Assembly (NCBI GenBank): GCA_018902385.1
Contig: JABSSW010000041.1
Location: 124,001 to 188,000 of the forward strand
Source: Physcia stellaris
Taxonomy: Eukaryota > Ascomycota > Lecanoromycetes > Caliciales > Physciaceae
Direction: 5' to 3'
Length of the DNA: 64,000 bases
Part shown: positions 1 to 16,220 of the stretch, in pieces
Layout: each line of letters opens with the position of its first letter
How positions within the stretch are numbered: position 1 is the stretch's first letter
Program-made: the position numbers and the translations under genes
Notes under the pieces: model-generated
Seen by the model: the letters and a program-made list of their open reading frames with translations, nothing else
Told to the model about the DNA's origin: nothing
Databases searched by the model: none

Positions 1-760
1 GTAACAAATTAGCCGCTAACTCGATCCGGCCCAACCTCACCACTTTTTTATTCAGTTTTTCTTGTAGATTTCAAAACTGGTCTCAAAATTACGATACGTC
101 AATTATTCATCGAGAAACAGCACCGATACCGCAAAGATCTCGGAACTTAGTCGAATTTTCGAGTTATCAAAATTCGAAAAATTCGTAACAAATTAGTCGC
201 TAACCCGATCCGGCTCAACCTCACCACTTTTTTATTCAGTTATTCTTGTAGATTTCAAAACTGGTTTCAGATTTACGATACGTCAAATATTCATCGAGAA
301 ACAGCACCGGTACCGCAAGGATCTCGAAACTTAGTCGAATTTTCGAGTTATCAAAATTCGAAAAATTCGTAACAAATTAGCCGCTAACCCGATTCGGCCC
401 AATCTCACCACTTTTTTATTCAGTTTTTCTTGTAGATTTCAAAACTGGTTTCAGATTTACGATACGTCAAATATTCGTCGAGAAACAGCACCGGTACCGC
501 AAGGATCTCGGAACTTAGTCGAATTTTCGAGTTATCAAAATTCGAAAAATTCGTAACAAATCAGACGCTAGCCCGATCCGGCTCAACCCCATCATTTTTT
601 TATTCCGTTTTTCTTGTAGATTTCAAAACTGGTCTCAAAATTACGATACGTCAAGTATTCATCGAAAAACAACACCGGTACCGCAAGAATCTCGGGACTT
701 ATTCGAAATTTTCGAAAATCTTGCTTGAAAATTTTTTATAAAATCAACCGCTAGCTCAAT
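1..760. repeat. Tandem repeat array A (~184 bp units, GGTACC type)
   Basis: Near-identical units begin with the phrase GTAACAAATTAGCCGCTA at about 1, 185, 369 and 553, with a decayed start near 739, giving a 184-186 bp period. Each unit has the same order: the phrase, a CGATCCGGCCCAACC block, a pyrimidine tract, TTGTAGATTTCAAAACTGG, CGATACGTCAA, ATTCATCGAGAAAC, then CACCGGTACCGCAAGGATCTCGG. The array runs off the left edge, so its full length is unknown. No ORF spans the units. C and G dinucleotides look normal here, unlike the mutated block to the right. Confidence 0.9.
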
Positions 761-844
761 CGGGACATTATATATATGAAAATGATGCGTTTTTTCATGC
801 TGATTTCAGAACTGCTTTCAGATTTGTCATATGTTAAGTTTTCA

Positions 845-965
845 TCGAGAACTCGCACCGGTACCGCTGGCTGAACATTTCATCGATACCGGAGCTAGTC
901 AACCCTAACCCCACCCACCAAAATTTGCGGTACCGGTGCACCGGTACCGTTAGAGTGGATGTTAG
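845..965. repeat. Terminal complex of array A with 22-bp perfect palindrome
   Basis: Array A ends in a segment holding the unit motif CACCGGTACCG directly (about 855), GATACCGGAGCTAG, the telomere-like word AACCCTAACCCCA at 901-913, and a perfect 22-bp palindrome at 928-949 built of two CACCGGTACCG half-sites facing each other across a central TGCA. It is followed by GTTAG and GATGTTAG. The same layout recurs at 2071-2190 with a different half-site. It could be a transposon end, a protein-binding hairpin or a recombination site. Confidence 0.75.
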
Positions 966-989
966 AATTTCGATACGTGTAATATTCAT

Positions 990-2070
990 CGAGAAATGAC
1001 TTCACGTTCAATTAAAAGTCGAAACTTCGAGAAATTTACGAGTTCAAAAACTTCAAAAATTCGTAACAAATTAGTCGCTAGTCCGATTCGGCCCAACCTT
1101 ATCACTTTTCAATTCGATTTTTTACGTAGATTTCAGAACTGGTTTCAGATTTTCGATACGTGTATTATTCATTGAGAAACGACTTCACTTCCAACCAAAT
1201 CTCGGGACTTCGAGAAGTTTCGAGTCAGAAAAGTTTGAAAAATTCGTAACAAATTAGCCGCTAGCCCGATTCGGCCCAACCCCACCACTTTTTGATTTTG
1301 TTTTTTACGTAGATTTCAGAACTGGTTTCAGATTTTTGATACGTGTAATATTCATCGAGAAACGACTCCACTTCCAATTAAATCTCGGGACTTAGAAATT
1401 TCGAGTTAACAAAATTTCAAAAATTTGTAACAAATTAGCCGCTAGCCCGATCCGGCCCAACCCCACAACTTTTTGATTTCGTTTTTTACGTAGATTTCAG
1501 AACTGGTTTCAGATTTTTGATACGTGTAATATTCATCGAGAAACGACTCCACTTCCAATCAAATCTCGGACTTCGAGAAATTTCGAGTTAACAAAATTTC
1601 AAAAATTTGTAACAAATTAGCCGCTAGCCCGATCCGGCCCAGCCCCACCACTTTTCAATTACGTTTTTTACGCAGATTTCAGAACTGGTTTTAGATTTTT
1701 GATACGTGTAATATTCATCGAGAATCGGCTTCACTTTCAATCAAATCTCGAAGTTCTCAATTTGAAAAATTCTCAACAAATTAGCCGCTAGCCCGATTCG
1801 GCCCAACCCCACCACTTTTCAACTTCATTTTTTACGTAGATTTCAGAACTGGTTTCAAATTTTTGATACGTGTAATATTCATCGAGAAACGGCTCCACTT
1901 CCAACCAAATCTCGGGACTTCGAGAAATTTCGAGTGAACAAAATTTGAAAAATTCGTAACAAATTAGCCGCTAGCCCGATCCGGACAAACTATATGTCTT
2001 TTTAACTCCATTTTTTCCGTAGATTTCAGAACTGGTTTCAGAATTTCGATAGATGCAATATTCATCGAAA
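990..2070. repeat. Tandem repeat array B (~163-184 bp units, CACTTCCAA type)
   Basis: Units with the same framework as array A start at about 1063, 1246, 1427, 1609, 1772 and 1956. They differ from array A in a consistent way: CGATACGTGTAATATTC replaces CGATACGTCAAATATTC, and CACTTCCAAYCAAATCTCGG occupies the slot that holds CACCGGTACCGCAAGGATCTCGG in array A. The 1609-1772 unit is about 20 bp shorter. The unit near 1005 has a diverged motif (CACGTTCAATT). No coding potential is seen. Confidence 0.9.
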
Positions 2071-2190
2071 AACGACTCCACTTCCAACAGATCCTCTAGG
2101 GGTTGAAAGTGGAGCTAAGTAACCCTAACCCCACTCACCAAATCGGTTGGAAGTGATGCACCACTTCCGTTAGAATGAATGTTAGATTCT
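2071..2190. repeat. Terminal complex of array B with near-perfect palindrome
   Basis: This segment copies the layout of the array A end: a direct CACTTCCAAC, an inverted TTGAAAGTGGAGCTAAGT, the word AACCCTAACCCCA at 2121-2133, then a 20-bp palindrome at 2149-2168 in which two CACTTCC half-sites face each other across TGCA, with one mismatched pair. GTTAG and GAATGTTAG follow, matching the array A complex. The half-site is always the array B motif and never the array A motif. Confidence 0.75.
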
Positions 2191-4943
2191 GTTGATATTG
2201 CTCGTACAAACATCGAAAATTTTGCGTTATTGATTCATTCGCGAATATGTCATTGATTGAAATGCAAATGCAAAGAAAAAATGATCAAAAAAAAAAGCGA
2301 GCGACGATTCGAAAATGATCGCAAAAATAAAAATAATCATTCTGTTGACTGAATAATAAATAAATTTCGCGTAGAAATTCGAGTAAATATACGCGAATTC
2401 GTCGAAAATTCGTAAAAAAGTTCGATAAATAGACGAATTCGTAAAAAACTCGCGAAAAATATGTAAATAAATCGAATTCGCGAAATAGATAAATGCGCGA
2501 GTTCGTAAAGTGAAATTGATTTGTATTAAAATATTGAATATTGCTCGATTGCAATTGAATCGTTTTGATTTAATTTGATTGAATATTTTCAATGAAATTG
2601 ATTATTGTTGAAATATTGCAAATCGATTGTTGTATTGCTCGACGATTAGATATTACGTGTTCATGTTGTGTTGTAATTGATATTAAATGTAGCGAAAATT
2701 GCTAACTCGAATTCATAATTTATTGAAAAAATCATAAATGATTATCATTTTATTGTTTTGAATCTCGTTGTTTTAATAACATACATGAAATAAAAACACA
2801 AAAAATGTGCGAATGTCAAGACGTTAATTTTAACAAAAACGCATTAATTCTTTTTTCGTCAAATTATATCAATTGATTTTTTGATTATTTTTTTGCGAAA
2901 ATTGTATTTTTCAACAACAACAATCATTTGTCGACGCATACAAACATATGACGATATTGTTTAATAATGATGACGAAATTCAACGTCAACGTGATTTGTC
3001 GTTTCATGACAATGTCGAATTGATCGACGTTTTTTATTTGTTCACGTTTTTCAAACAAATGTTCACGATCAATCGAATATTGCATATAAAAACAAAAAAA
3101 AACGAAACATAAATGAAATATCGTATCAACAATTCATTCATTTTCGACAACAAAAAACGCGCGATGAAACGAAATTCGATTTTTTATACAATTTTGTGAT
3201 AATCATTGACGACGATTATCAATTTATGCGACAAATACAAATTGCGTGCAATTTTTTGATTGTATTAAATCGCGTCAATCAATTTTTTGCGACGAAAAAA
3301 CAAATTTGAAATTTGATACATCAACACATTAAACATGCGCAAAAATCGTTGAATTGTTAACAAATACGAATTGATTTTGAATTGTCGAATTCGAAACGAA
3401 ACGTTTGTTTTGAAAAATTTTCGTCGCAAAATCATGATGTTTTGAACGCGTTTGTACAATCAATCACGAATTGCATTCAATTGATTGCGTAAATCATCGA
3501 AAAAAAACTTGTCGAATTTGTTGTCGAAATAATTGTCATTCAAATTGTTCATTGAATACAAAAACGTTTCATGCATATTCAATAACAAATCATTTTCGAA
3601 AATGACATTAATCGAATGAATTATAACGTTGATATTTTGTCGTCATTGCATAAAATTCAAATTGACATTTTGATAAAAAATTTGCATGCAATCGACGTTA
3701 ATAAAAATGATCGAATGTCGTATCGTGTCGTTATTAATTTTTCAAATAAACAATCGTTAACAATTCAATTTTGATATAAAATTGAACGCGATATTAATCA
3801 AATATTTGATTCGTTGTCGACGAACGATTTTTTGCAAATTGATTTTTGAATTTGTCGATTTAACAAATTTGAGAAAAAAATAATTCAAAAATTACAATTG
3901 CATGCAATGAATTCATTTATTCAATCGAAAAAAAAAAAATTGATCGCGATTCAAAATTTATTCGAATTGATTACATGCAATGCAACAAAATCAACGATCG
4001 AACAAATAAAAATTGAATTTTTTCAACGAAAACGAATCAAAATATGCAACAAATTATTAATTGTTTACACAAAAATCTTTGCACGCGATCGCAAAATCGA
4101 AACGTTTTCGTTAAAAATTTTATCGTTCGAATTTTTATCGTCAAAATTCTCGTCGTTCGAAAACGATAAAATGTTCGTCGATCGAAAACATTTTAACAAA
4201 AACAAACGTTTGAAATTGATTGTTAACAATAATTCAACAATGTTTTTGATTTCGTTAATTTGATTTGTCAAATCGAACAAATTCATCAAATATCGAATTG
4301 TCAAAAAAAAACAAATTTCGATATTTTTCGATAATTGAATCAAAAACAATATTAAATTGATTCATAATGTGTTTATCGTGTCATGATATTTTTTTTTGTA
4401 TTTTTAACAAAGTTTTTGTCGTTGTGCGATTTTTTTCGAAAGAATTGAAATAGCGTGCAATTTGTCGATTGATGAATAAAAAAATTTTGTTCGAAATAAT
4501 TTTGTCACGAAATTTCATGAAAATTTGTTATATCGTTTAATCGATCAAATGCTTTCGAATTAAAATGATGAAATTTATAACATGCAATCAATTTTTATGT
4601 TAAATAAAATCGAATTCGACGAATTTAAAATTATCGTTGTCGATATTGAAACGTATCGAATCGTCAACGAAAATATTTTTGAAATTTTGAAATTCGACAA
4701 CAAAATCGTCAAAAAAAACAAAAAATAAAATACGATAATGTGATACAAAAAAAAACGAATTCGAAAAAATTGAAAAAATTTATCGTTAAAAATTGTTGAC
4801 AATAAATTTTTCAACGTTTTTTTGTTTTTTTCAATTTCGTCATTCAGTTGAATATGTTCGTAATACGCAATCAAAAAAATATTTGATTCGCATAAACATC
4901 GATTGAAAACATGTTGTTAAACGTTTAATTTCATGTTGCGCAA

Positions 4944-5366
4944 TTAATTTCGTATTTTCGATTTATTTTCGTTTGCACGCGATTTGACATCGAAATATTT
5001 ACATGTTACGAATCGAAAAAAATGAAAAAAAATTTGATTATCGTTGAACGAAAAAAAAAATTGAAAACGTAACGCAAACGAACGATATTCGCGAACAAAA
5101 TAAAAAAATTGCACGCAAATTGATTGCACGTCGTTTTCATTAATCGAAATTTTGTTTTTTGCGTTTTCGATGTCATGAATCGAAAACAAATGTTTTTCAA
5201 TCGTACGTCGATTTTTATTGATTAATCGAATGTTTTCAATGCATGCATTACATCGAAATTCGAATTCGATAAACAATTCGAATACACGTTCGATATCATT
5301 GAATGAATGAATTTGACGAAAATCGCGAATATCATGAATGCGAATTTCGATTAAAATTGTTTGCAA
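4944..5366 (-). pseudogene. Relic ORF with a possible C2H2-like zinc finger
   Basis: A 140-codon minus-strand frame inside the mutated block stays open and contains Cys-x2-Cys followed after 16 residues by His-x4-His (FRCNAC ... IEKHLFSIH). Its start codon in the frame is ATG, but the composition (no Gly, Pro or Trp) says the sequence has been extensively mutated. Zinc fingers of this spacing occur in transposase and transposon-borne helicase proteins of fungi, so I infer a decayed transposon gene. Chance cannot be excluded. Confidence 0.3.
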
Positions 5367-5947
5367 TCGTTTTTTTTTTCATTTTGTGTTAATTTTTTAA
5401 ATGATTTTTAATGATCGAAACGAATACGCAATAATCATGTTTTGTACAAACAAATAAACGAAATGAAAAATGATAATTAAAATTGCAAAATTTCATGTAA
5501 ACGATCGAACGAAACGCGCGAATTTCGTGATAAAAATTTCGTGATTGAATTAAACGTTTAAATCATTGTTAACAATCAACTCGATATTTTTGATTTTGAC
5601 GTTGAAAATTGTCGTTTCGAAAATGAAAAATTGATTTTTAAATATTACGAAAAATAATGACGTGTTTGATTGCATGCAAAAAAATTTGCAAACAATTTGA
5701 AAAACGTTGATTTTTTTGAAAAAACGTTAAATGATTTTTCATTAACATGCGAAATGATTAAAGCAATTTCATGAATCAAATTTTTATCATTGATTGAATT
5801 TTCTAGAAAAATCATTTCGTTTTATTGTTAGAAAAATGTTTGATAACGTTAATTGTTACAAAAATGAATATTAATTATATTGCGTATTAATTATAACAAA
5901 TTTTATTATACGCAATAATCGAAACGAATTATTGCAATTGATTCAAT

Positions 5948-6131
5948 GTCGAACAACGAATTCGAAACAATGAAATAAAAATATAATTTGCAAACGACAT
6001 GATTTCGAAACAATAAATAAAAAATGTAATTTACAAACAACATGATTTTATCATTTTGAAAATATTAAAATTAAAATTATGTTGTTTGCAAATTATATTT
6101 TCATTTTATTATTTCGAATTCGTTGTTCGAC
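5948..6131. repeat. Inverted repeat, two ~57-bp arms with ~70-bp spacer
   Basis: The arm at about 5948-6004 (GTCGAACAACGAATTCGAAA ... CATGATT) is matched in reverse complement by about 6075-6131 (AATTATGTTG ... GTTGTTCGAC), with only a few differences. The spacer is AT-rich. The arms may be the terminal inverted repeats of a small non-autonomous element, or the head-to-head junction of two copies. Confidence 0.7.
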
Positions 6132-6289
6132 GAAATTGAAAACGAATGCGATTGTTAACAATTTGAATCGTTTAATATGCATTGCAAAAAATCAATAATT
6201 TAAAAATAAAATAAAACACAACGTTAATGTTCGATATAATAAAACGAAATAATTAAATCAAAACGAATGATTTTTAAACGTAATTTGAT

Positions 6290-8325
6290 TAATCGCAATT
6301 TTTGTTGCTAAACGTTCATATTTTTGAATAATATAAAAATTTCGCAATTGAATAATTTTGCACATAATCGTTAAATCAATTTCGTGTTCACGACGTTGAA
6401 TTTCGTTTTTCGAATATTACATAAAAATTTCGATAACGATTATTTGAATTTTTCATTTAAAATGATCGTTAAACGATATATTGTCGCGAACAAATTAAAA
6501 AATTCGATTATCGTTATTTTGTATAAAATTACGATTTTATATCGCATTAATTGTTCACATATTGATTACACGAATTTTGATTTTCACGACGTTAAATTGC
6601 GTTTGTTCAAAACGTTAAATAACGAATTTTCGATAATAATGATTTGCGTTTACATTTTTGAATGATAATCGTTAAATTGTAATTTTGATTAAAAACAAAC
6701 GCACAATTTTTGTTGTTAAATATTCAAAAATTTGTATGAAATCAAAATTACGCAATTGATATATTTTTTACGCAATTATTATATCATTTTCATTTATACG
6801 AAATTGAATTTTTTTCATTGCGCGTTACATATATTATGTTATTATTAAATACTATTTGCAAACAAGTTTGTTCGTGAATTTTTTCAAAAAAATTTCATGC
6901 AAAATTTCAAAATTAAATTTAAATTTGATAAAATTGCGAAAATCGACATTTCGCAATTGTTTTACGATATCAACGATTTCGCATTTTAATAACATTTACA
7001 TTCAATGAATAAAATATACAAACGAAAACTCATTTTGAAATTCATTGTGAATTCTATTCAAATAATCAATAATATCGAATATTCATCGAATGCGCATTAA
7101 ATTATGATCGAAATCGCATTAAAACGTTGCAAACATTGTCGAAAATCGAACGCAACACATTTCAACAAACACAAATTTGACAACGACGTAATTTTCGAAT
7201 TTTCAAAACTATTGCGACAATGAATCGATTTAAACAATTTTTGAAACGTTGAAATGCGTTTATTTTATTTTACAATCTTGATTAAATACGCGAAAATCAT
7301 ATGAAATTGTTGATTGAAATGCAAAATGCGAAACAATTGTACAAATTTCGAAAAATTGAACGAAAACATTTTCGCAAACATTTCAATTGACGATTTGACA
7401 ACGACGAAATTTTCGAAACATCAAAATTATTGCGATAATAAGTCGATTTTTATTATTTTTGCAACGTTAAAATGCGTTGATTTTGTTTTACAACTTTGAT
7501 TAAATACATGAAATTTATATGTGATTGTTGTTTGATGTGCAAAATGCGAAATAATTGCAAATTATTGAAACGTTTTGAAATAATTTTGACGTATGTTTCG
7601 ATTGAGAATTTGAATTTTCAATTGATGAAAATTATCGATTTTAACGAATACGAACGCAAAATTGATCAAAATTTTTCTCGATCGATCATTCGCGTTAAAC
7701 GATTTTAATGAATATAGAACACAATCTATAAAAAAATGTCTTTGATTATTCTTTTTTGAAATTTTTGTTCAATCGGAAAATCAATTCTTTCGTGACAAAA
7801 ACATCAATTTTCATTGCATTTTCACTCACAATCATTCGCATGCATCGTATTTATGAAATGAACAATAATGATAACGTTTTTCAAACGCATTTCAACGCTG
7901 TAAAAATGAAACAAAAATGAACAATATTGACGATGATATTTGTTTTGAAAATATTAAAATTTTCGAATCGTCAAAATTCAAAAAATTTTTTGTTAAATTC
8001 GATGATTTTCATCAATTGAAAATTCAATTTCTCAATCGAAACATATGTCAAGATTATTTCAAAACAAAAGTCAACAGAATTTTTTTAAAAAATTCAGAGT
8101 CTGCTTGTTTTATTATAGAAAAATTTTATGTATTTTGAAATAATATCATAATTGTTGAATTGAAAATTTTGAATAAACGCAAATTGAAAAATCGAATTGT
8201 TATAAATTTGTATAAAATTGAATTTTCGCAATTGAATAACAATTTATTTATTTGTTATATCATTTTTATTTTTACAACATTGAATTTTTTTCATCGAACG
8301 TTACAAATATTAAATTTTACATGTT
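6290..8325. repeat. Diverged ~100-140 bp repeat in three copies
   Basis: A segment containing CGCAATTGA followed, after about 40-60 bases, by a TTGAATTT ... TTACAWAWATT stretch occurs near 6335-6425, 6745-6835 and 8219-8325. The first two copies also share the upstream phrase CAATTTTTGTTG. All three are in the same orientation. They are probably remnants of duplicated transposon sequence. Confidence 0.5.
7179..7620. repeat. Tandem duplication with 218-bp period
   Basis: GACAACGACG starts at 7179 and again at 7397, and the following ~120 bases align closely through TTGATTAAATAC. A third, more decayed copy seems to start near 7600. In the plus frame the unit repeats the peptide CKMRNNC, so the duplication may once have encoded a repeated Cys-containing motif. 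Confidence 0.65.
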
Positions 8326-8850
8326 TATCATTTGTTATTTCAAATTTTGATGAAAAGTCGTCGAAACTAATAATTTAAAAAATCGATTTGATTGATTTTA
8401 TTTTGACGTCGATCAAAACGAATAATTGAAATTAACGATTTGATTGATTCAAAACAAACAAATCGAATTGAAAATTTTTAAATTTCTCGTTTGTTCGTCT
8501 TGTAATTTTAATTCGAATTCGTTATTTATATCGCATATATTGCATATGTCGCATGTATTAATATTTAATGTTTTCATTTAAATATTTGTTAATTAATTAA
8601 TCAATTCAATGTTTAAATCGATGTGTTTTAATTTTTCAACATATTATGAACAATAATCATTGAACATAATTAGTTTTCGCGTTCACGAATATTACTTTTT
8701 AGTAAATTTCAATTTATACTTTTTGTCGTTTTCGTTTTCGATTCTCGATTACATTTTTTCACTTTTCACATCTTTAACTTTCTCATCTTCATCGACGACT
8801 CGTTCTCTTTTCTCTTCGTGCTTGAGATGGGAGTCGAGCTCTGATTTCTA

Positions 8851-9065
8851 GAACTGTGTTTCTGACACGAATTAATATCTGTCTGAGTTCTTCGTCACGC
8901 TATAAGTCTCGTAAACGCTGAGAGTGTGAAAGAGCAAGAAGTGCATGCGGAGAAGTTGGCGGTGTCCGAAGCGTGCAAACCATGAAATCATCGAGAGAAG
9001 ATCCATCCCATATATATCTCTAGGGGGCGTTGGAAAGGGGAATCGATGTAGAAATTCCCGTTTCT
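8851..9065. other. Intergenic, nothing recognised
   Basis: Transition from AT-rich repeat to balanced DNA, just downstream of the next gene's stop codon. I see no gene or clear site. Confidence 0.5.
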
Positions 9066-11120: not shown

Positions 11121-12056
11121 CCTTAGCGATCTATTCGTATCTTTGGGAGGGTGAAAGAAGTTTGATGGAAACACGGAGAATTTTTGAAAGCCATGTATGC
11201 TGCATGCAAAACGGTTAGGATTGCCGCTGGCCGTATGTTACACGACATTTCTGACAATCTGGCCAGAACGTTTGTTACACAACATATCTTGCAATCTGGC
11301 AAGAGCAGGCGATTGAAGATCAGCATCACTCGAGAGTGCTGTATTCCCACATCGTCGGTCAGACAGATGACTGTTTGACTCAAGCATGAACGTATACTTT
11401 GAAGCGTTTGAACCTGTGAGATGTCATGCAAAGAAGAGATACTACTATATTAGCTTCACAGGAATTTCGAACTGAGAAAGAAATTTAGAAGAACTCTGGA
11501 TTTCGAATTGTGCCAAGATTCTGGATCCAATGGTGCATGAATAGCTGCGTCACCCACCATGCGTCCGTATTTCGTTTGTTGGTATACGTGCTACAGCCTA
11601 CGAGGCTGGCCAATGCACCCCCCGGCGGATGACCCCCGCCGAATATGAACAGCACATCCTGCAGGCTTCATGGAGGGGCGGAGGGGGAGCTTGGTGGCCA
11701 GAAGTCATTAGGATATCGGTCTGACCCCGATCATTTCACGGCTTACACATTTCGGACTCCACTGCAGAGCCTCCATCCCCCCCTTATCTCAGCCTTCACG
11801 AGTCTTATTGCGTGATCAAGCACTCGGACACGCGCTGACATGTGCCAAAATAACGTGTCTATGAACCAGAGCACGACCAACAGCTCAAGCACGAGTGGCG
11901 GGGGGATGGATGTGGTCGTCGGTGAAGATAAGTAATCGAAAGCCGAAACCGAAAGCGACGACGAGGGATGTGTCCTGCGGAACCCTTTTCCGCTCCGACC
12001 CTCATCACCATCAATTCTGCAACATATATCAAGTGAAAATCATGCGCACATCAGGT
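11121..12056. other. Intergenic region between membrane gene and hAT relic
   Basis: Balanced composition with only short ORFs. A GC-rich patch at 11616-11645 contains CCCCCCGGCGG and CCCCCGCCG. This stretch probably holds the promoter of the minus-strand gene to the left. No convincing gene seen. Confidence 0.5.
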
Positions 12057-12084
12057 GCATCAATGCAATGTTCGCAAATGTGCA
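12057..12084 (+). repeat. Left terminal inverted repeat of hAT relic
   Basis: GCATCAATGCAATGTTCGCA followed by AATGTGCA; pairs with 15025-15052. The next ~100 bases contain several TGCATTAGTGCA and ATTGCATTGCA-type words, which look like subterminal repeats. Confidence 0.7.
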
Positions 12085-15024
12085 TTAGTGCAGTTTTTGA
12101 TTCAGAATTGCATTGCACTAAATCATTTTTGTAAAAAACTATTAATGTTTATCTAGAAATTGCATTGCATTAGTGCACATCGATAAAATGTATAATTTTT
12201 TTGATGTTTTGTTTGATATGCATGCATTCTAGTAATTTTTTTTTTTTCGTCGTTTTCGTCGTTTTCATTTGTTTCAACAATTGTTTTTCGAATTTTTTCG
12301 TCATGATTGCGTTGATTGAATTCTCGATGAAAATTTTTGTTCGAAATCAAAATTTGCAACATTTCAACGCCTCGATAAATCGAGACTTGAATTTAGTTCT
12401 TTCATCGATGATCGTATGCTTGATTTCTGAAAACACACGTTCGAATTTTGCGAACATACTAAAAATCGAAAATACGTTCATGACCATACGTGTGAATCTA
12501 AAAAATCGCTCGCTTTGACTCTTTCAATAAGCGATGATACTCTCTAAATCGCGTATTCTGAACTTTAGTAAATATTGATTCAATTCGTTCATCTCGATTG
12601 TTTTTTTTTGATATTTAATCATTCATTGCATGAACTCAAACATTTTTGTTTTTTCGTTGAATTCAGAAATTGCAATATGTTGAATCGCTGTTGAGAAATT
12701 GTTGTATTTGATTCAAAATTTATTCAACGAGAATTTGATTTCACGAATCACGTCGAGATTTCAATGTTGAGTATAATTTCATTTATGTCGAAAATTCAAT
12801 ACAATGACGACGATATAAATAAATATTCGATCGATAATGATATTTCAATATTTGCGCAATTTCTTGAAATTTGATTCGATAAATAAATTCATAAAAAAAT
12901 CGAATTGATGATTTCGATTTTCAGTTTCGAATTTATGCATCAAAAAATTCAACATAAAAAACATTTTGTTGATCGTGATTTCACGATTTTCGATAAAATT
13001 CGTAACATCGTGAAAATTTTTCAAAAAATCACGCATTTGTGTAAATATTTTTCAATCAAAAATCAACAATTTATCGTTTTTCAATTCGAATTTTTCGTTA
13101 ACGAAAACGTTGATAATCGATTTTATTTTTTTGAATGTTCAATCAATCATATCGTATCATGAATTTCATTTTGTAAATTGATTTCGTTTGAACATTACAT
13201 TATCAAATTTTTTTTCAAATTTTAGAAATCGTTGTACGCGTTGCGAAGAATATAAAATGTACGTATTGATATTGTGAAATTTGTTTTGAAATTCAAATTT
13301 TCGATATTTTTGCAAATTATCGTTCAACTTTTTAGCAAAAAATGTATTAACAACAATGCGATATTTCACGACAAAATGTTTTTCAAACAAATAAATTTGC
13401 ATTGTCAAATTGATTATGTGATTCAAACATCGTAAACGATGTTCAACGAAATCGTAATCAATGTCGTGTTGTTTTCGAAAAGTATCGAATATATGTTTGA
13501 ACATGATATCATTCGAATTCAAATTATTTTTTACGAAATAATTCAAATTGTTTCGTATTTCGTATTCGTCGAAAATTTGAAACACGATGTGATTCATATT
13601 TTCATCAAAATGTTGTTTTTTGATTTTTTCAACGCGAAAAATAAAATTTGTTGTTGCATATTTTCGATAAAATGAACAACAACGATCAACATGTTTAAAT
13701 GATTCGAAAAAATTCAAACGTCACACGTTATATGAATATTTGACACGAAATTTCGAAACACATGACGTATTCGAATTTGATTTTTTTGAAAAATTCAAAT
13801 ATTCGTGTTTTGATGATATTATTAATATAAAAAAACATAACGTTGATCGAAACATTGAAATAATGAATAAAAAAACGAAAATTTTCGTTGACGATTTGAT
13901 CGAATGTGATATTTACGACAATGATTCATCGAACGTACAAATATTCAAGCATTTTTTTGTCGATTAAATGAATTTGAAATTTTTGTAATTGACGATTTTT
14001 TCGTTGTTCGTTCAATTCGAGTTGACGATTGAATGTTGTTTCGATGTTGATCGCATAAAATTGATTTTTCTTTTCAATTTTGTTCGCAATGATTATTTCA
14101 TGATTTTTTTTCAAATAATTAATCGTAAATCGATGTTCTGAATTTCATTTGTAAATTCGAAAACAAAAATTGCATTTATGAAGTTTCGCGTCTGTAATAA
14201 AATCATTGATAATATGAATGTAATTGTGAATTTTTGTTGTAAAACGTTTGTTGTTTGTTGCAATAAAAAAAAATCGAAAAATTGTTGTATTGAATTTCTG
14301 AAAAAATTTTGTAATGATTGAAATTTCTAAAACAAACTCGATTTTTGTTTTTGAATTTTTCACGTCAAAATCGTTTCATGAATTAGAATCGCTCAAATTT
14401 GACGCACGAAATATTTGAATATTGATAATTTTTTGACGTTTTGTTTTAGAAAATTGCGATACAGATTTTTGATTGAATTTGAATTGAATCGAAATTTTTT
14501 GACGAAAAACGTATTCAAATTCAATTGATTTTTTATTTTGAATTTCACGCGTGTGTTTATCAACAAAATTCTCGAAAACATTTGAAATTTTGCGAAAATA
14601 AATCGTAATATTGTTCGATGCAATTTGTTGATCAAAATCGAAACTCATAATGACGTCGCATTGAAATAAATGAATGAAACAAATGCAAAATGTAAAAAAA
14701 ATTTGATTTTTGCGAAAATGAACGATTTCGACATTGCGAATTTTGTTCGATTTCACGCATTAATTCGTTTTTAAATTCAAATTATTTTCACATGATTTGT
14801 TTTTAACGAATTTCAAAATTCATTCGAGTGACAAAAACTCAACATCATTAACAAATCTCGATAAAATATTTTTCTCGACGTATTTTTCGATTTTTTTGTA
14901 ATTACATATTTGCATTAATGCAATTCACTTCAGAATTGCATTGCACATGTGCATAATTTTCGAAAATTGCATTGCATAATTTGCAAAAATTTCATTAATG
15001 CACATTGTGCACTAATAATGCACG

Positions 15025-15052
15025 TGCACATTTGCGATCATTGCATCAATGC
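15025..15052 (-). repeat. Right terminal inverted repeat of hAT relic
   Basis: Reverse complement reads GCATTGATGCAATGATCGCA followed by AATGTGCA, matching the left end at about 25 of 28 positions. TGCATTAATGCA-like subterminal words continue inward to about 14910. Confidence 0.7.
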
Positions 15053-16220
15053 GACGACTAAATATGCTCGATGATTAATAAACATAATACATACATCAAA
15101 CGAAAAGCGATTAAATATCTTGTATAGAATTTTGAGAAGAAAACGAAATTGATTTCAGAAAAATTGTCTGTACGCATATACGTCTTTGAAGATTTCATTT
15201 TTAACGTTCTTGACATATTGAAAATCTTGATTCAATGTCGAAAATACGTGATAAAAAGTTCGCGATCGAAAAACACATCGTCAATCAAATCTCGAATTTT
15301 CGAATTTTCGAATTTATCATTGTTGTTGAAACGATGTCAAAAGTCGTCGCATTCGATGTAACGTGACAATTATGATTACATCGAGCAATATCGTTTGAAC
15401 AAAAACATCATTAACGTTTAATTAGAGACTATTTGAAGCATTCACAAATTGTTTGTCGAATCTAAAAATGATTGATACAAATTTCGAATATCGCTCAAAT
15501 TGAAAAAGAAGAAACAAGAATCAAAATCAACTTATCAAACGTCGCAAATCAATTATTTCATGATCTGATAATAAGTGATGTTTATTTTTAGAATTCATTG
15601 AAAGATTTATTGTTCGAGCTTCAAACAAATGACATTAATCAACAATAAGAAACAAGATTTTGAAAAAAAAATAACTAGACAAATCTGACGAGAATCGTGT
15701 TCGTAATTGACGTATCATTGAATCATGAAATCGACGAATAAATCTAAAATCGATATTATCGATTTGTTTGATATTCTTGATTGTCATCATCAGACGACTC
15801 ATCAATCGCATAGTGCTCGAGTTTCAGAAAAGAAGAAAAAACAGAAAAAGTCATAAACAAAACAACAAGACTTTCTATTCAGACATTCAGCGACGAAGAA
15901 ATAGATAGAACGATATAGAGAGAAACAGAAAATAAGATACGACAAATGTTTTTTACTATCTGTAAATCAATCTAAGAGAGAACTATGATAGTGCAGCGTT
16001 TCATCTGCGAGACAATTCTTGTCAACATAAGAAATGTCTGAGGATGTCTTACGATTCACGATGAATTGCACATTTGAAAACCTTCATTATCAGTGTCCTT
16101 GTAGGAGATCAGTTTCTGTTTTGACTGATGTAGTGCAGGGGTCAGATCATCTATCTCATCTCAGTTACGATATCATCGCTGCGACCTGAATGCCTCTTTA
16201 GATAATGCCTCTGGTTCAGT
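15053..16220. other. Intergenic, AT-rich fading to normal
   Basis: AT-rich sequence with A-rich stretches near 15820-15950. The extreme dinucleotide bias of the hAT relic is lost within a few hundred bases. No gene recognised. Confidence 0.5.

Follow-up and report, generated by a model that had tools for sequence, protein, structure and literature searches.

In a 64,000-nucleotide stretch of the genome of Physcia stellaris (Physciaceae, Lecanoromycetes), hereafter the window, repeated DNA has lost nearly every cytosine that precedes a pyrimidine (CpY), while most of those that precede a purine (CpR) survive. Alignment of repeat copies shows that the underlying C-to-T change follows the context order CpC > CpT >> CpA >= CpG and ignores the 5' base. 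Repeat-induced point mutation (RIP) is targeted to repeats, converts C:G to T:A and reads the 3' context of the cytosine; the Physcia pattern is probably explained by a repeat-directed, RIP-like mutation of this kind, carried out by RID-family machinery whose 3' specificity would have changed. The window covers positions 124001-188000 of contig C41 in the genome analysed here, whose 44.0 Mb in 147 contigs are probably a subset of the published assembly, described as made from an axenic ascospore culture with Nanopore and Illumina reads and as comprising 46.57 Mb in 184 scaffolds (PMC7513301).

The depletion is plain from simple counts. A sequence-only reading of the window had reported one CT/AG and no CC/GG in positions 2941-3840; recounting gives the same numbers, far below the 126.1 +/- 8.0 (minimum 95) obtained from 5,000 base shuffles. 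Its further statement that C is kept only before a purine describes 1,349 of the 1,397 cytosines on the two strands of 2201-7700 (678 in CG, 671 in CA); none stands before C, but 48 stand before T. Observed/expected (O/E) ratios in the four 1-kb segments of 3001-7000, a calculation that the same reading had proposed, are 0.00 for CC and GG, 0.02-0.08 for CT and AG and 3.4-4.5 for CG, and TpA/ApT is 0.476 in 2191-8700. The interval it had delimited, 2191-8850, is depleted in bulk but less so toward its ends: 20 of the 48 residual CpT sites fall before 2,780, and in a 100-bp scan CpY increases from 8,701 and is normal by ~8,801-8,900. From ~16.1 to 64 kb, and in the satellite at 1-2190, the window has no such depletion.

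The first mutated block (block 1) is composed of repeats, here called families A to D, and comparison of their copies gives the direction of the changes. Context counts cover families A, B and C and the satellites, with L056 as the reference copy for family C and L037 for family A. L056 is the GC-richest and least mutated family C copy, with 54 CC/GG, 80 CT/AG, 114 CA/TG and 54 CG, against 0, 9, 111 and 51 in the copy of the window. Its CpY-rich letters lie between ~1.49-kb flanks that hold no CC/GG and only 6 and 9 CT/AG, so that L056 looks like a young insertion in old mutated DNA, from an element that probably moved recently. At the nine CpY sites left in the window copy, all of them CpT, L056 has T at none, and it is thus a fair stand-in for the ancestor. 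In the window copy, T replaces the C of L056 at 53/54 CpC, 72/80 CpT, 12/114 CpA and 3/108 CpG sites (CpY against CpR, Fisher p 1e-66). Counted on both strands, the two copies show 300 differences, and 280 of these are C>T or G>A, the class of transition that RIP produces. The extremity of the pattern might suggest an unusual ancestral composition, or a fault of assembly in which CC/GG had been collapsed, but this is the least probable of all the accounts considered here: L056 keeps CC and CT in number within the same 854-bp element, the copies differ by substitutions, and the pattern is accordingly mutational. Homopolymer collapse is further opposed by the disappearance of CT/AG along with CC/GG and by the abundance of AA/TT in the depleted DNA, as given by the O/E ratios.

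Pooled copies extend these counts, with the qualification that CA and CG figures are inflated by ordinary substitutions in older copies. Ten family C copies changed at 445/519 CC, 506/794 CT, 126/1121 CA and 102/1054 CG sites, and eight family A copies, compared with L037, at 31/32, 1209/1426, 287/3449 and 52/3011, respectively. Eight satellite copies, chosen by us from many, give 399/646 CC, 196/641 CT, 55/676 CA and 51/890 CG. With the CpT rate set to 1, the fitted rates in family C are 1.95 for CC (1.60-2.69), 0.104 for CA and 0.087 for CG; the family A values are 1.57 (0.90-13.63), 0.041 and 0.008, and in family B, where CpC sites are lacking, CA stands at 0.067 and CG at 0.019. The four partly mutated copies among the ten of family C (L042, L044, L047 and L051) have changed at 169/215 CpC and 118/320 CpT sites. 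The proposal made from the sequence, a cytosine-mutating machinery that favours C before a pyrimidine, is supported by the aligned copies, in which C-to-T change falls on CpC and CpT rather than on CpA; neither of the two outcomes that the sequence-only reading had named as refuting it was obtained. The copies add that CpC is hit before CpT.

The base on the 5' side has no effect at CpC in family C (changed fractions 0.87 for ACC, 0.84 for CCC, 0.90 for GCC and 0.81 for TCC) or at CpT (ACT 0.62, CCT 0.63, GCT 0.61, TCT 0.68). Before CpR the counts are 46/376 for TCA against 25/213 for ACA and 42/412 for TCG against 16/157 for ACG, with 27/168 for CCA and 4/122 for CCG. These trinucleotides bear on two other candidate mutators, an APOBEC-like deaminase and ultraviolet (UV) damage at dipyrimidines. 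In favour of such an origin, lichens are exposed to full sun, both agents yield C-to-T changes, and CpC and CpT are dipyrimidines; both agents, however, should favour C after T or C, an effect that family C does not show, and both leave the restriction to repeats unexplained, which makes this origin very improbable. A genome search with APOBEC_N returned no match, and its control was likewise silent.

Partly mutated copies also separate the RIP-like reading from canonical, CpA-type RIP, in which the present pattern would be an illusion created by saturation. In L044 and L042 CpA is nearly intact (2/114 changed in each), whereas CpC is gone at 45/54 and 46/54 sites. Among 364 low-GC segments of 500 bp, 293 lack CC/GG altogether, yet only one exceeds the TpA/ApT cut-off for RIP (0.89), 24 fall below that of the substrate index (1.03) and one does both; these segments come from loci L001-L069, overlap, are not independent and were mostly selected by similarity to the window. 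The standard TpA/ApT index thus largely misses CpY mutation. Other Lecanoromycetes are reported as RIP-positive by standard indices (PMC7882544) and part of the CpA is lost in the most mutated Physcia copies, but a saturation illusion is nonetheless hardly credible. Canonical RIP, with CpA as target and TpA as product, is rejected on the CpA and CpC losses in the family C window copy and the low TpA/ApT of 2191-8700. Decay of methylated CpG is also rejected, CpG being the least changed context, and the earlier judgement that neither process fits is upheld. Since RIP target context varies between species, this outcome bars the term canonical RIP and not RIP-like.

Mutation is concentrated in repeats, and gene-rich DNA is spared. 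Most of both depleted blocks in the window (Table 1) matches other places in the genome, as expected of a process targeted to repeats, except for ~950 bp adjoining block 2. We sampled 16 arbitrary 1-kb points at round coordinates: 13 are normal, with 85-218 CC/GG, and three are low in GC, with 0, 0 and 2. The second depleted block, of the same kind as the first, spans ~12,050-15,950 and contains a repeated element independent of block 1. A copy related to that element has a weak BED zinc finger match (Pfam E 0.012, below cut-off), and the element may be hAT-like.

Table 1. Features of the mutated end of the window (positions in the window unless a locus is named).
Feature	Position	Strand	Remarks
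Tandem satellite, 183/184-bp units	1..2190		Unmutated here, mutated in other genome copies
Mutated block 1: CpC erased, CpT nearly so, CpA and CpG kept	2191..8700		CC+GG 1, CT+AG 70, CA+TG 795, CG 375; O/E ratios
Repeat family A	2918..5833	-	8 further copies used, 85-93% identical
OrsD-like stretch (PF12013), weak	L037 3573-4169		In a less mutated family A copy; Pfam E 1.6e-5, 25.8 bits, just below the 26.6 cut-off
Repeat family B	5831..6862		10 further copies used
Repeat family C, nested between B and D	6862..7715		GC 0.260 in the window copy, 0.229-0.417 among the 10 further copies used
Repeat family D, continues B	8128..8530		10 further copies
Fading edge of block 1	8701..8850		100-bp scan; CpY back within ~150 bases
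Mutated block 2, other repeated element	12067..15046		Copies C16 (92%) and C19 (96%)
Flank of block 2	15047..16000		No CC/GG, CT/AG increasing outward; a single short match to repeats

A search for RID- and DIM-2-type methyltransferases, suggested by the sequence-only reading, recovers four PF00145 matches at three loci: one DIM-2-like, one RID-like and a second RID-like. The DIM-2-like locus (L062, contig C3) has a 1118-aa frame with a methylase domain, DUF7893 and a sub-threshold BAH match; among solved chains it comes closest to 9bap (1,456 aa, E 4.6e-188), which we take to be Neurospora DIM-2. The RID-like gene is L063 (C5), whose protein matches the P. stellaris protein P0125 at 99% over 95% of the query. 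The second, shorter one, L061 (C6), runs for 403 residues up to a stop just past a splice-like site, retains the PPCQ and E-x-T motifs and has one methylase domain; the sequence beyond the splice-like site resembles a Heterodermia relative (P0009) that is unbroken over 524 aa, and the gene is predicted to contain introns. NCBIfam assigns the methyltransferase proteins only to the general C5-methyltransferase superfamily. In a midpoint-rooted FastTree phylogeny of 224/229 catalytic stretches, with DIM-2 left out, L063 groups with Heterodermia RID (support 0.99) and other Lecanoromycetes. L061 lies apart from RID in a well separated clade of 37 (0.91) or 38 (0.99) members that includes Heterodermia. 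By these placements, Physcia and Heterodermia each carry both RID-like kinds. L063 and L061 both fall among RID-type fungal proteins, and the genome thus has the gene type that RIP uses; the labels RID and RID2 are ours and reflect this position rather than comparison with Neurospora RID.

The DIM-2-like gene gives substance to the main rival account, in which RIP has no part: DIM-2-type methylation would mark CpT and CpC in heterochromatin, and the resulting 5-methylcytosine would slowly deaminate. The gene is full length, and a 2026 review describes DIM-2 as methylating mostly non-CG sites with a preference for CpT (PMC13297926). Here, however, CpC is lost faster than CpT. L044 differs from L056 at 77 positions over ~854 bp, of which 69 are C:G>T:A, three the reverse and five other changes. 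It has changed at 66/134 CpY and 3/222 CpR sites, so that about half of its CpY is gone alongside only five non-transition differences; deamination would need a very high rate to do this. These proportions are not those of ordinary decay and fit a burst better. Slow deamination of this sort is accordingly unlikely, though less so than the other rivals discussed above.

Repeat targeting, exclusive C:G-to-T:A change and dependence on 3' context are together the behaviour of RIP, and these carry the RIP-like reading. The process reads the base 3' of the cytosine, prefers a pyrimidine there and disregards the 5' base. It may be carried by a protein of the C5-cytosine methyltransferase family, of RID type, with shifted 3' specificity, presumably acting in the sexual cycle. 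CpC saturates first and CpT next, CpA being reached only in the oldest copies. The second RID-like paralogue, on C6, is the leading candidate for the enzyme, with RID and DIM-2 as the others, although it is less likely than not to be the one. A more far-reaching proposal, which we regard as speculative, is that the Physciaceae line may have exchanged CpA-type RIP for this second protein as a repeat mutator dedicated to CpY; transposon proteins would then lose their Gly, Pro and Trp while long frames stayed open.

Several observations count against the RIP-like reading in this form. The precedence of CpC over CpT is not significant in family A, given the interval quoted above, and family B is uninformative on the point. 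When alignment columns are counted without an assumed ancestor, 97-98% of those holding C in CpT also hold T, but so do 44-67% for CpA and 21-53% for CpG. Survival of CpA, as claimed from the sequence, describes the family C window copy, where it is mostly spared, but only in part the most mutated copies, since the family B window copy has lost 64 of 164 reference CpA sites (39%). Protection of CpA is therefore relative, not full, and these losses, together with the column counts, require either prolonged exposure or an additional process of lesser strength. The ~950 bases beside block 2, with their single short repeat match, are also free of CpC, which resembles leakage or may mark an unrecognised repeat. 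Finally, the CpT preference ascribed to DIM-2 means that this enzyme could contribute.

Comparison with other fungi places the Physcia pattern within RIP-like behaviour but at an unusual point. As in Neurospora, changes are solely C:G to T:A, repeats are hit and genes spared, the 3' base is read, and RID- and DIM-2-like genes are present; unlike in Neurospora, TpA is not raised and the order of contexts is reversed. That order is given as CpA>CpT>CpG>CpC for Neurospora, and as CpA~CpG then CpT>CpC for Trichoderma reesei (PMC5496416). CpT is strong or predominant, together with CpA, in Magnaporthe oryzae, Botrytis and Sclerotinia according to a table from which CpC is absent (PMC4352252). CpT also leads where RIP-capable fungi were aligned as controls (PMC7882544) and is leading or high in Neurospora Tad1 (PMC2621366). 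The CpT-rich RIP of Magnaporthe, Botrytis and Sclerotinia thus shares a strong CpT component with Physcia but pairs it with CpA, not with CpC; Monilinia is described as showing CpC-to-TpT double changes beside classical CpA mutation (PMC8959702).

Basidiomycetes such as Microbotryum and Rhizoctonia solani AG8 show hypermutation of CpG type, which likewise departs from CpA, but CpG is the best protected context in Physcia. R. solani AG8, called CpG-biased, has single-nucleotide polymorphism (SNP) spacings of 214 bp for CpC, 370 for CpG, 422 for CpA and 491 for CpT, in genes and repeats alike (PMC4014442, Table 2), figures from a SNP table and not from repeat-directed erasure as in Physcia. The Lecanoromycete Cladonia rangiformis resembles Physcia in its heavy load of low-GC repeats and its RID and DIM-2 homologues, and differs in a low-GC peak at ~16%; the terms 'CpA' and 'dinucleotide' do not occur in the available text of its report (PMC12542154). 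RIP is commonly held to target CpA, and a 2025 survey covering 1,239 species is summarized as finding a shared CpA preference among RIP-like defences (PMC12543289). In the accessible text of the P. stellaris genome paper, 'point mutation', 'AT-rich' and 'transposable' are absent and 'RIP' occurs only within 'RiPP' (PMC7513301). Our literature search, made partly on excerpts and not extending to the likeliest survey (Clutterbuck 2011), found no fungus in which CpC leads and CpA is spared.

Within block 1, families B and D look like a single element interrupted by insertion, since B directly adjoins D in other copies (for example C71:192075-192488 and 192488-193189). Within the inserted segment, 6862-8127, two 77-bp sequences at 7572-7648 and 7989-8065 form an inverted repeat. 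The satellite at 1-2190 has at least 87 genome matches and is unmutated although tandem and adjoining block 1; its copies L026 and L030 are CC-free. Farther along, 20960-57443 holds long frames resembling, by eye, oxidases, a monooxygenase, an adenylating enzyme and P450s, which suggests secondary-metabolite genes near the mutated end.

The mutational context also leaves its mark on the reading frames. Gly, Pro and Trp are missing, as had been noticed from the sequence, from all eight stop-to-stop frames of at least 90 aa in the block (905 aa). The accompanying explanation, that long frames survive because only TGG becomes a stop, agrees with a simulation on one intact open reading frame of the window: full CpY conversion creates 22 internal stops in this frame, which has 22 Trp codons, against 43 for full CpA conversion, while changing 506 bases against 273. 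Three of three proteins on other public contigs that match a block frame also lack Gly, Pro and Trp over 120-150 aa, and may come from the same species.

Open frames in mutated repeats can thus reflect chance chemistry rather than selection, and a genome that is heavily mutated can pass for RIP-free when screened by TpA/ApT and CpA indices. CpC, the least preferred context in Neurospora, is the most preferred in Physcia, which indicates that the 3' recognition of the RIP machinery can evolve, and the two RID-like proteins of this one genome provide a natural pair for finding the residues that set specificity.

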